NCBI GenBank assembly: GCA_021781475.1
Contig: JAJXWT010000001.1
Location: 81,161 to 116,100 of the forward strand
Length of the DNA stretch: 34,940 nt
Source of the DNA: a bacterium
GTDB taxonomy: Bacteria > Patescibacteriota > Saccharimonadia > Saccharimonadales > Saccharimonadaceae
Direction: 5' to 3'
A program made the position numbers and the translations under genes. The notes below the pieces were generated by a model. That model was not told where the DNA came from. It searched no databases and saw nothing but the letters and a program-made list of their open reading frames with translations. Positions 3,892 through 24,093 of this stretch are shown here, one piece after another (position 1 is the first letter of the stretch; the number at the start of each line of letters is the position of its first letter).

Positions 3892-4898
3892 TGGCGCGGC
3901 GTGCCTACCCGAACAACAGCCCCCGTGTGGTGGTGATTGGTGGTGGCACAGGTAGCTTTACGTTGCTGAGCGGACTAAAAAATTATGTGCAGGATTTAAC
4001 TGCTCTCGTAAACATGGCAGATAATGGGGGGAGCACTGGCCAACTGCGCGATGAGCTAGGGGTGTTGCCGCCAGGCGACGTGCGGCAATGCTTGGTGGCG
4101 TTAAGTGATAGCCCTAAGGTACGTGATTTATTTACGTACCGCTTTGACGAAGGGGCGCTCAAGGGGCACGCGTTTGGTAACCTCTTTTTGACGGCACTCG
4201 AAAGAATGACTGGGAACTTTGCGGAAGCGGTAGACCTTGCCAGCGAGGTTTTAAATATCACCGGGAACGTGGAGCCAATTACACTCACAAATGTCACCTT
4301 GTGTGCAGAGGGCGCAGGTGGCGAGCCGGTGAAAGGGGAATCGACAATCGCCGAGGCTGCGTTGGCCACAAAGCCCACAGTGTGGTTGGAGCCCCAGGCA
4401 AAAGCCAACCCGGCTGCCATTGCGGCAATTTTACACGCTGATATGGTGGTGATTGCCCCAGGGAACTTATACGGCAGTTTGGCGCCGGCACTTGTAATTA
4501 AGGGGGTCCAGAGGGCACTGCGCGATACAGCGGCCACTTGCGTGTATGTGTGTAACTTGGTGACAAAGCCTGGCCCTACGACAGGCATGCGCGTTCACGA
4601 TTTTGCTGGTGAAATTGAGCGTTTGGCAGGCAGCGGGTTTTTGGACTATGTGGTGTTTAACAAACAAGTGCCAAGCCAGCAACTGCTTGATAAATATGCA
4701 CACGACGGCGAACAGCCGGTGGCGTACGACGAAGCGGCGCTAAGACAGCAGCACTATCGCTACCGGGGCGCCGATTTGGTTGCCGGGTCGGCTTGGGGCG
4801 GCGCGCAGGCGAGCGATCCCCTGGCGGGGGCGCGCAGCCTTATCCGGCACGACCCCGATGCAGTAGCGCGGCAGTTAATGCGGATTTACTTTACGTAA
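3891..4898 (+). CDS. YvcK/CofD-like gluconeogenesis factor
   Basis: A 335-aa Rossmann-fold protein of the YvcK/CofD-like group. It binds UDP-sugars in Bacillus and Mycobacterium relatives and links carbon flux to peptidoglycan synthesis. Visible motifs are the nucleotide loop VVVIGGGTGSFTLLSGLK (about 13-30), NMADNGGSTGQLRDELG (about 41-57) and PPGDVRQCLVALSD (about 60-73). AFGNLFLTAL and a later APGNLYGSLAPAL are also present. The GTG start at 3891 overlaps the TAG of the glycosidase. It stands directly before the dcw promoter, which suits a role in wall precursor supply. The 12-bp inverted repeat after the stop ends the transcript. Confidence 0.9.
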   Translation: MARRAYPNNSPRVVVIGGGTGSFTLLSGLKNYVQDLTALVNMADNGGSTGQLRDELGVLPPGDVRQCLVALSDSPKVRDLFTYRFDEGALKGHAFGNLFLTALERMTGNFAEAVDLASEVLNITGNVEPITLTNVTLCAEGAGGEPVKGESTIAEAALATKPTVWLEPQAKANPAAIAAILHADMVVIAPGNLYGSLAPALVIKGVQRALRDTAATCVYVCNLVTKPGPTTGMRVHDFAGEIERLAGSGFLDYVVFNKQVPSQQLLDKYAHDGEQPVAYDEAALRQQHYRYRGADLVAGSAWGGAQASDPLAGARSLIRHDPDAVARQLMRIYFT

Positions 4899-4922
4899 GG
4901 GTTGGGTGTAAGGTGCAGCTTG

Positions 4923-4955
4923 AACTTTTCCACATTTCTGTGGAAAAGTTTTTCT
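4923..4955 (+). terminator. Intrinsic terminator after the YvcK-like gene
   Basis: A perfect 12-bp stem, AACTTTTCCACA (4923-4934) and TGTGGAAAAGTT (4939-4950), has a four-base loop and is followed by TTTCT. The stem is AT-rich. Confidence 0.7.
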
Positions 4956-7320: not shown

Positions 7321-9057
7321 GTGGAATATATAAAAGGCAAACGAACTCGATTGCTCGCCGGCTTTGTGATGGCAGCCATGGCGGTGTTTTTCGTGCGTCT
7401 TTTTTATATCCAAATTATTCAACACAATTATTATACGGCACAGGCAGATAGTGAATATATTAAGCAGTTTACCTTACATGCTCAGCGTGGTGAGATATAT
7501 GCGCTTGAAGGCGACCAACCGGTACCTTTAGTGATGAATGAAACGGTATACACCGTGTGGGCCGACCCAACAGTGGTAACCGACAAGCAAAAAGTCGTTG
7601 ATGTGATTAATAAAGTCGCCGGCGGCAACACGCAGCCAAATTTTGCGCAGCTCCTAGATGTAAAAAACTCACGCTACCAAGTGCTCGCGACAAAAGTGAC
7701 AAGGGCGCAAGCGGAAATGATAAAAAAGGAAAATCTGGCAGGGGTAGGCTTTGACGCAGTGACGCAGCGCGTGTACCCAGAAGGTCAGCTCGCAAGCCAA
7801 GTTTTGGGTTTTGTAAACAGCAACGGTGACGGACAGTATGGTTTTGAGCAATATAACAACAGTATGCTCAAAGGCAAAGATGGCATGCTAAAAACCGTGA
7901 CCGATATCCGCAACGTGCCACTGACAATCGGCAATGACAACATTAAAACGCCGGCGGTGAATGGCAAAAACGCCGTCCTTACGATTGACCGCGATATACA
8001 GGCTAAGGTGGAACAGGTACTCGCGCAGGGTGCCGCACGCACGCACGCCAAGCAGGTCAGCGCTATTGTGGTGGATCCTAACAACGGCCATGTGCTTGCG
8101 ATGGCCAATATGCCGACGTACGACCCAAACAAAATGAGCAGCGTGACCGATATATCAGTGTTTAATAACGATACGATTAGTAAACCGTACGAGGTTGGTT
8201 CCGTTGCAAAAACACTCACCATGGGCATGGGTATCAACGAAGGCGTCATGACGCCACAGAGCACCTATGACAATTTAGGGTACATTGTGGTAGACGGCAT
8301 TCGGATTAATAACGCTGATCAAACGCGCCTGCTGGGGCGGATTACGATGCAAGATGTTTTAGACTGGTCGCTCAACAGTGGCGTGGTCACAATGACAGAG
8401 TGGCTTGGTGGCGGGTCAATCAACCTAAAGGCACGCAACACGATGTACGAGTATTTCCACAATCGCTACCACCTAGGGCAGCTTACGGGTATTCAGCTGG
8501 CCGGTGAGACGCCAGGCACTATTATCCCACCGACCGATGTACAGGGTAACTCAATACGTTATAGCAATATGGCCTTTGGGCAGGGGATGAGCCTTACAAT
8601 GGTCCAAACTGCGGCGGCATTCAGCTCGGTTATTAACGGCGGCACTTACTACAAGCCGACTATTCTTGCTGGGTTTATGAATAATGGTACCTACGACCCG
8701 TTGCCGGTAAAACCCGAGGACACCAACGTGATTAGCGCACAGGCCTCACAGCAAATGCGAGCAATGATTCACCATGCTCACTACGCCACGTGGCGTCCCA
8801 ACGACCCCGCCGGCTACTACATTGGCGGCAAAACTGGTACCTCACAGACAATCGACCCAAAAACAGGTAAGTACCGCAACACCGATACAATTGGTACTTA
8901 CCTAGGTTTTGGCGGTAACGACCCGAATAAGCCGGCCTACGTAATAATGACAACACTCGCCGGCGGCGGTAACTTTGGCGGGGGTGACGCCAAGGTCATG
9001 TTTAACCAAATATCAGATTGGATGCTTGGCTACTTGAAGCTCCCGCCGAAAGGATAG
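7321..9057 (+). CDS. ftsI: Division transpeptidase, class B PBP (FtsI/PBP2-like)
   Basis: A 578-aa class B penicillin-binding protein that cross-links septal peptidoglycan. A transmembrane anchor lies at about 11-30. The PBP dimerisation region starts with AQRGEIY (54-60). The transpeptidase domain holds SVAK (S294, K297), SLN (S350-N352) and KTG (K504-G506). Start is GTG, 2 nt after ftsL, so coupling is likely. No PASTA domains follow. The product is outside the membrane and a beta-lactam target. FtsI is favoured over an elongation PBP because of its place in the dcw cluster beside ftsL and ftsW. Confidence 0.93.
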   Translation: MEYIKGKRTRLLAGFVMAAMAVFFVRLFYIQIIQHNYYTAQADSEYIKQFTLHAQRGEIYALEGDQPVPLVMNETVYTVWADPTVVTDKQKVVDVINKVAGGNTQPNFAQLLDVKNSRYQVLATKVTRAQAEMIKKENLAGVGFDAVTQRVYPEGQLASQVLGFVNSNGDGQYGFEQYNNSMLKGKDGMLKTVTDIRNVPLTIGNDNIKTPAVNGKNAVLTIDRDIQAKVEQVLAQGAARTHAKQVSAIVVDPNNGHVLAMANMPTYDPNKMSSVTDISVFNNDTISKPYEVGSVAKTLTMGMGINEGVMTPQSTYDNLGYIVVDGIRINNADQTRLLGRITMQDVLDWSLNSGVVTMTEWLGGGSINLKARNTMYEYFHNRYHLGQLTGIQLAGETPGTIIPPTDVQGNSIRYSNMAFGQGMSLTMVQTAAAFSSVINGGTYYKPTILAGFMNNGTYDPLPVKPEDTNVISAQASQQMRAMIHHAHYATWRPNDPAGYYIGGKTGTSQTIDPKTGKYRNTDTIGTYLGFGGNDPNKPAYVIMTTLAGGGNFGGGDAKVMFNQISDWMLGYLKLPPKG

Positions 9058-22790: not shown

Positions 22791-23651
22791 CTACCGCAAT
22801 GTCCATTGGTTGGCACCAAGGGCACGGACGGTGCCGCTGAGCTCGAGCATGGTGAGCGCGCTGTTGAGCTCTGGCGTTGTAACGCGCAGCTGGTTTTGGA
22901 TTTGATCGCCATCGCGCAGACCACTGTTTAAAAGCTCAATAATATGCGCTTCGAGTGGGCTCGCACCCATGGCGAGCGCCGGTTGTTTTGTTAGTAGACT
23001 CGGCGCAATCACCTGCAAAATATCGGCGGCGCAGGTTACCGGCGTGGCGCCTTGCTTAATTAATGCGTTGCAGCCGGCACTCATGGGGCTGGTGATGTTG
23101 CCCGGTACCACGAACACATCTTTGCCCTGCGCCAAGGCGTGGCTTGCGGTGTTTAGGGTGCCGCTACGGGCACCGGCTTCGGTAATCAAAATGCCGTCGC
23201 TTAAACCGCTCACAATGCGGTTACGCTCAAGCATATTTGATTTGTAACTAGCGGTGCTATTTGGCGGGTATTCGCTGAGTAGTGCCCCACCGTGCTCTAA
23301 AATACTGATAGCGAGGTCGCGGTTGGTGCGTGGCACAATGGTATCAAGCCCGCACGGTAGCACGGCCATGGTAACGCCGCCGGCGCTGAGCGCAGCTTTA
23401 TGGGCTAACGCATCGGTGCCAAGCGCCAGGCCGCTTACAATTACCACCCCCTTGCTGGCAAGTTCGCCTGCTAGTTGGCTCGTCACTTCTACCCCGTAGC
23501 TAGTTGGCTTGCGAGTGCCCACAACCGCAATGGCCGGTACCCTAGTACCTGGCAGCTCGCCAATATAAAATAATATTTTGGGCGGTTTAGGGATATTTAC
23601 CGTTATCTGCAAAAACGGAGATTTATCTGGTGAAATTTTATTGATTTTCAT
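22791..23651 (-). CDS. dprA: DNA-processing protein DprA
   Basis: A 286-aa DprA/Smf protein that binds incoming single-stranded DNA and loads RecA during natural transformation. The Rossmann core has AIAVVGTRKPTSYG, VSGLALGTDALAHKAAL, LPCGLDTIVPRTN, SEYPP and ITEAGARSGTLNTASHALA. GNITSPMSAGCNALIKQGA follows. A winged-helix domain ends the protein (about 225-286). The start is taken as ATG 23651. A perfect TTGACA-type -35 sits 17 nt before a poor GACACA -10 that ends six bases from the ATG, so a leaderless transcript is likely. Gene uptake by naturally competent Saccharibacteria makes this gene relevant. Confidence 0.95.
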   Translation of the reverse strand: MKINKISPDKSPFLQITVNIPKPPKILFYIGELPGTRVPAIAVVGTRKPTSYGVEVTSQLAGELASKGVVIVSGLALGTDALAHKAALSAGGVTMAVLPCGLDTIVPRTNRDLAISILEHGGALLSEYPPNSTASYKSNMLERNRIVSGLSDGILITEAGARSGTLNTASHALAQGKDVFVVPGNITSPMSAGCNALIKQGATPVTCAADILQVIAPSLLTKQPALAMGASPLEAHIIELLNSGLRDGDQIQNQLRVTTPELNSALTMLELSGTVRALGANQWTLR

Positions 23652-23671: not shown

Positions 23672-23700
23672 TTGACAATGTGTCAAATGTGTGCTAATAT
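23672..23700 (+). promoter_or_regulatory. Consensus promoter of the structured RNA, overlapping the dprA -35
   Basis: TTGACA (23672-23677), a 17-nt spacer and TAATAT (23695-23700) on the plus strand. TTGACA-atg-TGTCAA (23672-23686) is a perfect palindrome, so the -35 boxes of this promoter and of dprA lie back to back and may share an operator. Confidence 0.85.
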
Positions 23701-23706
23701 CAAAAG

Positions 23707-23992
23707 CGATTGATTATCCGGTAACGGATGTCAAGCACCTTATACCCCCTATTCTAACTTATGTTAGGTTGCGCTAAAAGGTGTGTAATGGTAATCTACC
23801 CTCCACTGTTACACCGCTTAGAAAGCTTTTTAGCGTATACTAACCCCTTTGTCCAGCGGATCTCTACGTTTTGTGAGGTGGATCACGTATACCCGGATCG
23901 GGTGGGACGAAGGGCAAACTGGTGTCAGGTGATGCCCACCCTTACCTGGCGCCAGTTTGAAAAATGACCCCTTAACTGGGGTCGTTTTTGTT
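23707..23992 (+). ncRNA. Probable structured non-coding RNA, about 286 nt, family unknown
   Basis: The unit runs from a near-perfect promoter to an intrinsic terminator. Predicted helices in order are: ATCCG/CGGAT with a GUAA tetraloop, CTAAC/GTTAG, CGCTAA/TTAGCG enclosing GGTGT/ACACC, GTATAC/GTATAC enclosing a GATC/GATC arm, CCCG/CGGG, and a 16-bp helix (arms start CAAACTGG and end CCAGTTTG). The 16-bp hairpin loop contains CCCACCC, complementary to GGGTGGG just upstream, so a pseudoknot can form. Hallmarks of RNase P, tmRNA, SRP RNA and T-box leaders were looked for and not found. A 59-codon ORF (23788-23967) lies inside and ends at the terminator; the strong helices favour an RNA role, but a coding or dual role cannot be excluded. 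Confidence 0.68.
23966..23992 (+). terminator. Intrinsic terminator of the structured RNA
   Basis: GACCCC (23966-23971) and GGGGTC (23978-23983) form a stem followed by GTTTTTGTT. An ATTTTT tract on the other side makes it potentially bidirectional. Confidence 0.88.
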
Positions 23993-24020: not shown

Positions 24021-24039
24021 TGTGGGCAAAGTAGCTGGG

Positions 24040-24079
24040 CTTGCCCCTGCATGTACACTGTTGTACATGCAGGGGCAAG
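24040..24079. other. Perfect 18-bp hairpin downstream of the orphan gene at 24094
   Basis: Arms 24040-24057 and 24062-24079 pair without mismatch around a four-base loop (outer CTTGCCCC, inner TGTACA). No U-tract follows on either strand, so it may protect the 3' end or pause the polymerase before the terminator at 24008-24020. Confidence 0.75.
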
Positions 24080-24093
24080 GTTGGTGGGTATGG

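Follow-up and report, generated by a model that had tools for sequence, protein, structure and literature searches.

Does the plus-strand transcription unit that lies between dprA (minus strand) and a ZIP transporter gene in a Saccharibacteria-type bacterium encode a functional RNA and, if so, of what kind? Saccharibacteria are the best-studied Patescibacteria, and their genomes are very reduced. The window, by which we mean the whole 34,940-nucleotide stretch of DNA that was analysed, comes from a 0.81-Mb assembly (G000, contig C10) in which no 16S gene was found. A sequence-only reading of this DNA had placed at the locus an unassigned structured RNA with its own promoter and terminator, divergent from dprA; the questions addressed here are whether that RNA is real, how widely it occurs, and what it may do.

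A structured RNA gene beside dprA

A genuine noncoding RNA gene occupies positions 23701-23989 of the plus strand. The consensus TTGACA-17-TAATAT promoter and the intrinsic terminator that had been read from the sequence were both confirmed; the -35 box (TTGACA, 23672-23677) is separated by a 17-nt spacer from the -10 box (TAATAT, 23695-23700), which is preceded by TG, and a hairpin followed by a T-run lies at the 3' end (Table 1). Of 148 distinct homologous loci, 143 have a promoter of the same type before the RNA, TG-extended in 142. The -35 box of the window falls inside the palindrome TTGACAATGTGTCAA (23672-23686), and 31 of the 143 promoters have an inverted repeat TTGAC-N5-GTCAA across the -35 box, an arrangement of sequence which hints at a regulator.

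When the segment 23707-23992 was folded, a free energy of -120.5 kcal/mol was obtained, as against a mean of -79.1 (sd 4.6) for dinucleotide-shuffled sequences (z = -9.0); none of 200 shuffles folded as well, and the fold bears out the claim of at least seven helices. Covariation was assessed for P2, P3 and P4 in 64 sequences taken order-wide. In this alignment (A3), which was fitted to the covariance model and hence leans toward the tested structure, pairing-preserving two-sided changes occurred in 25 of 25 pairs (415 such cells), 91.2% of positions were paired, and the covariation score was 0.63, as against 0.20 after shuffling, with 0 of 500 shuffles scoring as high; pairing dropped to 27-43% when the partners were slid. 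The unfitted MAFFT alignments gave two-sided changes in 20 of 25 pairs (A2) and in 14 of 30 pairs (A1, 95.9% paired). Compensatory changes of the kind that had been proposed as a check are thus plentiful among the homologues, beyond both shuffled and slid controls, and the product of the locus is by this measure a structured noncoding RNA.

Two other explanations of the conserved segment were rejected. A conserved small protein, encoded by the internal 68-codon ORF, does not account for it: the frame is unconserved, an ORF of at least 50 codons is kept at only 16 of 148 loci, and the constraint tracks base pairs and loops, so that conservation of the ORF alone, which had been named in advance as the contrary outcome, was not what was found. 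Nor is the RNA a riboswitch or the leader of a gene that follows: it ends in a terminator of its own, and in few loci does the ZIP gene lie downstream.

Table 1. Features of the RNA gene and its divergent neighbour (window coordinates)
Feature	Position	Strand	Basis or remark
Noncoding RNA gene	23707..23989 (~283 nt)	+	fold z -9.0 and homologs; 5' end predicted
Promoter TTGACA-17-TAATAT	23672..23700	+	TG before -10; same type in homologous loci
P1, 5' hairpin	23710..23734	+	stem and loop differ among species
Conserved unpaired block GCACCUUAUACCCCCUAUU, C-rich element 1	23735..23753	+	nearly invariant, 25 species
P2, hairpin CUAAC-UUAU-GUUAG	23754..23767	+	longer hairpins instead in relatives
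P3, long-range helix (23769-23780 with 23826-23837), encloses P4	23769..23837	+	covariation
P4, hairpin	23781..23815	+	two-sided changes in 10/10 pairs
P6, long-range helix, CCCCUUUGUCC (23844-23854) with GGGACGAAGGG (23904-23914)	23844..23914	+	
P7, hairpin	23855..23887	+	92% paired; site of extra domain in some relatives
P8, small hairpin ACCC-GGGU	23891..23903	+	competes with proposed pseudoknot strand GGGUGGG (23900-23906)
P9, hairpin	23916..23958	+	invariant apical UGCCCACCC (23933-23941), C-rich element 3
Additional intrinsic terminator hairpin with T-run	23960..23989	+	sequence and fold
dprA, divergent neighbour	22791..23651	-	first ATG complementary to 23649-23651

Support for the individual helices was as follows. 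P2 was paired in 100% of cells and, order-wide, in 97.8%, with two-sided changes in 5 of 5 pairs; P3 was 97.3% paired in the 64 sequences, with two-sided changes in 10 of 10 pairs; P6 was 99.5% paired and exhibited UA/AU and AU/GC swaps at columns 10-11/83-84; and P9 was 95.7% paired, with two-sided changes present. The ACCC/GGGU stem of P8 is replaced by AUCC/GGAU in one relative (L019). A GUAA-capped hairpin, described earlier, is indeed present as P1 of the window, but its GUAA loop is unconserved in relatives. The 16-bp perfect helix likewise exists and corresponds to P9; in most relatives, however, P9 itself is the RNA's own terminator, with a U-run directly after it, and the extra terminator at 23960-23989 is therefore particular to this genome.

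The stems vary freely, and three unpaired stretches hardly change: GYACCUUAUACCCCC in the block before P2; UACCCUCC, the nearly invariant portion of the P4 loop AAUCUACCCUCC (23793-23804), which constitutes C-rich element 2; and the P9 loop UGCCCACCC. The sequence-only reading had suggested a pseudoknot between GGGTGGG and CCCACCC, which could form in the window but is not obligate. Among 146 loci the G strand reads GGUGGG in 80, GGUG alone in 25 and neither in 41, whereas CCCACCC is unchanged in the 146, even where the G strand is missing. Pairing with the G strand therefore cannot explain why the loop is conserved, and an obligate pseudoknot was rejected as the cause.

Three minor observations concern the same region. 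An insert of ~100 nt at P7 (GAGUNU..AAGUAUUGG..GGCGC..GACGCUUC), conserved in its own right, occurs in L017, L021, L022, L025 and L026 as well as in distant families. The P3 strand of distant families (e.g. L071-L096) reads GUUUUAGAGC...GCUCUAAAAC, letters that match the start of Cas9-type CRISPR repeats; this likeness is probably a coincidence. Just downstream of the RNA, at 24037-24080 of the window, a near-perfect inverted repeat GCTTGCCCCTGCATGTACA...TGTACATGCAGGGGCAAG forms a stand-alone hairpin.

Distribution in the order and comparison with known RNAs

A plain DNA search recovered the RNA from 31 of 60 relatives, among them every one of the other 12 genomes of the genus. Two covariance models that share no helices were derived from these homologs to extend the survey, R1 representing the 3' domain and R2 the 5' domain. 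R1 matched 343 of the 393 genomes of the order and 138 of its 156 genera, nearly always at a single place per genome, and with slower filters the RNA was found in 30 of 30 chosen genomes; R2 landed on the same place as R1 in 62 of 63 loci. The recommended search of other Saccharibacteria thus returned homologs that are near-universal, and a near-universal RNA gene that annotation has missed is likely to be a core component of these cells. An order-wide 5' model, R3, was run over 380 genomes of the phylum and yielded 24 matches, all within the order (24 of the 32 order members sampled), and none among 5 other genomes of the class or 343 genomes of other classes; since the eight order members that R3 missed include several of genera g2 and g12, in which the 5' domain has diverged (L028, L030), this absence outside the order holds only at the sensitivity of the model.

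Of 393 host genomes, 331 contained a 17-mer around the P9 loop (GNGRTGCCCACCCYYNC), nearly always as a single copy; the reversed 17-mer was present in none of the tabulated host genomes. With one copy per genome the motif is not a common host mRNA motif, and a repeated mRNA element was rejected on this ground. The second P9 copy in one genome (G376) lies at a contig end beside topA and resembles an assembly duplicate. When named genomes were scanned with a P9 21-mer, almost only Saccharibacteria records were found among the matches listed. Both halves of the Saccharibacteria RNA are also contained in L107 (SEAL01000024.1), which is labelled as a Chloroflexi MAG and is probably a mis-binned contig.

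The covariance scan against Rfam 15 matched no family. At the gathering score the window RNA had no hit, at E<=10 it gave only chance matches of miRNA or Xist type, far under threshold, and at E<=1 eight homologous loci gave no match; together with the many compensatory changes and the unconserved ORF, this result supports the earlier description of an unnamed structured RNA. No described noncoding RNA of Saccharibacteria was found in the literature searched, where an unnamed earlier prediction is possible (16,482 putative models, PMC8040213). As no Rfam family matched and the literature searched named none, we rate the RNA as the founder of a new family, and not as belonging to, or varying on, a family already described.

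Known housekeeping RNAs were rejected individually, in agreement with the statement that signatures of RNase P, tmRNA and SRP RNA are missing. RNase P RNA (RF00010) and tmRNA (RF00023) had no match in the window, and the copies belonging to this genome are encoded elsewhere, at G000:C21:11324-11676 and G000:C21:8187-8572, respectively. In G000 and 14-19 relatives, neither SRP RNA (RF00169, 0 of 20; RF01854, 0 of 15) nor the Ffh M domain (PF02978, 0 of 15) was detected; PF02978 matched 14 of 14 reference genomes that served as positive controls. SRP subunits are reported to be missing in many CPR bacteria (PMC8080830), so that this loss is not special to the order; genomes without detectable SRP still keep the RNA almost without exception. 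The model for 6S RNA (RF00013) did not match, and the consensus consists of several separate helices rather than one long helix with a central bubble. Matches that resemble 6S but fall under the Rfam cut-off were noted directly next to the RNase P RNA gene in two genomes, at G059:C15:7775-7926 and G037:C51:16563-16716; elsewhere in the order 6S may have diverged.

In general architecture the RNA resembles OLE, raiA/ModT, ROOL and GOLLD, large structured RNAs whose functions are unknown or known in part, all of which are long, multi-helix, conserved intergenic RNAs with their own promoters and a lineage-restricted occurrence. Unlike these it has no Rfam 15 match, its size and domain plan are different, it is found order-wide, and parts of it are copied by viruses.

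Copies of RNA elements in viral contigs

Solitary P9 loops were found in IMG/VR with a strong excess over control patterns. GTGATGCCCACCCTTAC occurred in 38 contigs (38 places), as against 3 for the reversed pattern, and GCGGTGCCCACCCCCTC in 36 contigs (37 places), as against 1; stand-alone P9-loop hairpins are present in about 74 viral contigs in total. At 68 of 75 viral places at least 4, and mostly 7-10, further complementary bases flank the loop on each side, beyond the shared 17-mer, and 69 distinct stems were counted; flanking complementarity was seen in 0 of 4 controls. A chance origin was rejected because the reversed patterns are rare and the flanks complementary, and the presence of one loop on unrelated viral stems is as expected if a hairpin with that loop is selected.

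The viral places are mostly intergenic. Some hairpins have a -10 box before them and a T-run after them, so that a transcript of ~40 nt is predicted, and others occupy the leaders of genes for head scaffold, capsid (Phage_capsid_4), replication initiation, terminase or RecT-like proteins; many precede scaffold, capsid, replication or RecT genes by 60-180 nt, often with a -10 box just before them. The 5' domain has also been copied. The viral contig L221 and the locus L123 both carry a shortened version, in which the block GYACCUUAUACCCCCUAUUCUAAC is followed by P2 and by P4 inside P3, closed by its own U-run at the P3 end. L123 (NZ_JAEMNW010000001.1, labelled Antrihabitans sp. YC2-6; ~4150-4950, minus strand) holds a separate P9 hairpin in addition to this mini 5' domain; the stretch has ~50% GC and phage-type genes (YopX), and its origin may lie in a phage, in an integrated element or in epibiont sequence within the assembly.

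When the viral P9 contigs were searched with R1 and R3, the whole host RNA was not found, except in L290 (IMGVR_UViG_3300049064_000004), which carries a complete RNA with its promoter and, in the leader of a RecT-like operon, a separate P9 hairpin. The RNA gene of L290 lies at 8005-8371, ~70 nt from the end of the stretch examined, with phage genes where dprA is usual; either a provirus has integrated next to the RNA, or the virus itself has the RNA in its genome. Through this complete RNA at least one of these viruses is linked to Saccharibacteria, and the hosts of the other viral contigs, judged solely by the shared motif, would be Saccharibacteria as well.

Racrs are RNA anti-CRISPRs, solitary CRISPR repeats carried by phages which compete for Cas proteins (PMC10651486). 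The present case is alike in that viruses encode solitary copies of a host RNA element. It is unlike Racrs in that the imitated element is part of a noncoding RNA present in one copy, where Racrs imitate a CRISPR repeat, that the viral P9 hairpins share the loop alone while their stems differ, and that competition is here a proposal.

Possible roles of the RNA

We hold with moderate confidence that the RNA is a stable, trans-acting and order-specific molecule which presents C-rich docking loops, and that phage hairpins mimic these loops and compete for the partner that they engage. A strong promoter of its own would drive transcription of the RNA, and hairpin P9 would form its end; helices P2, P3, P4, P6, P7 and P9 would provide a scaffold that displays UACCCCC, the P4 loop UACCCUCC and the P9 loop UGCCCACCC, all three of them C-rich; and these elements would dock a cellular partner, an RNA-binding protein or RNP being likelier than a pairing mRNA. 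Phages of these bacteria would make short RNAs or mRNA leaders in which the P9 loop is set on stems of other sequence or, more rarely, a mini 5' domain is present; such same-sense copies would compete for the docked partner. The RNA is probably a basic cell component with which viruses tamper. A more far-reaching version, in which the whole order depends on a hitherto undescribed core RNP whose RNA displays the C-rich loops, and diverse phages have repeatedly gained minimal decoys of them, is put forward tentatively, as somewhat less likely than not; were it true, the RNP would be either antiviral or a central regulator, which phages would have to disarm or hijack.

Sponge RNAs of the CsrB/CsrC type carry several similar unpaired GGA motifs on one RNA and bind protein. 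The Saccharibacteria RNA is comparable in that several unpaired elements on one molecule could bind one protein, and differs in that its elements are C-rich, not GGA, and that the host genomes yielded no copies of the P9 motif in mRNAs.

The same loops might act by base pairing instead, which would make the RNA a riboregulator, with phages imitating or redirecting the pairing; the unpaired elements are all three C-rich, the CCUCC of the P4 loop is complementary to Shine-Dalgarno sequences of GGAGG type, and the P9 loop (9-13 nt) could pair with RNA. The precedent is the 6C/B11 RNA of Actinobacteria, whose C-rich hairpin loops are reported, in mycobacteria, to pair with G-rich ribosome-binding sites of mRNAs; to repress a target whose 5' UTR contains a G tract, B11 requires one or both of its two C-rich loops (PMC10470900). 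C-rich hairpin loops are the feature in common; the Saccharibacteria RNA is much longer than 6C/B11, bears the loops UACCCUCC and UGCCCACCC, and is unmatched by the 6C/B11 Rfam model. We consider direct pairing unlikely, as the sequence of the P9 loop stays the same throughout practically the whole order, stricter than changing mRNA targets would predict and suggestive of a partner other than that of 6C/B11, and as the three loops differ from one another. Position in the viral genomes raises another possibility, that P9 is a general cis element (an mRNA stabiliser, or a translation or anti-termination signal that a host factor reads) which phages place in leaders. Many viral hairpins lie in 5' leaders or between late genes, among them those at 60-180 nt upstream of scaffold, capsid, replication and RecT genes, and these a cis element would fit equally well; a hairpin in a leader does not separate it from a decoy. 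Such hairpins are, however, found nowhere else in host genomes, and viruses also have the hairpin with a T-run and no attached gene, as well as separate copies of the 5' domain. That P9 is a cis element of this sort seems to us quite unlikely, and equally so its corollary, that the host RNA carries P9 merely as a stable 3' end.

Two further readings turn on the gene itself. The RNA is universal and single-copy with its own promoter, and RF00013 was not detected in 36 genomes of family f1, as might be expected of the order's stand-in for 6S or Ms1, binding RNA polymerase and tuning transcription; phages would then manipulate the polymerase through the loop. Such a role is highly improbable given a fold with no single long helix and central bubble, and given that 6S-like matches lie beside rnpB in G037 and G059, of which G037 has the present RNA too. 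The proximity to a competence gene stressed by the sequence-only reading is genuine: the neighbour is dprA (Pfam DNA_processg_A, PF02481, E 6e-69, plus DprA_WH), and in 132 of 169 loci, which range from the family of the window out to distant ones, the two genes are arranged head-to-head, a strong synteny. The remaining 37 loci, however, keep the RNA without dprA inside the scanned stretch, so that adjacency does not establish a role in competence. Regulation of dprA or competence from the shared divergent promoter region would make sense of the head-to-head arrangement and of the inverted repeat on the -35 box, but is scarcely credible; transcription would point away from dprA and stop at the RNA's own terminator, and two genes can stay adjacent simply because they share promoter space.

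For an RNA that docks a partner through its C-rich loops, the viral loop copies would be a natural probe for that partner. A transposon-insertion data set, from Southlabacter epibionticum, and natural-transformation genetics have been published (PMC10633639), and these resources make essentiality of the RNA directly testable. The P9 hairpin may, in addition, mark the phages of Saccharibacteria, a group hard to assign.
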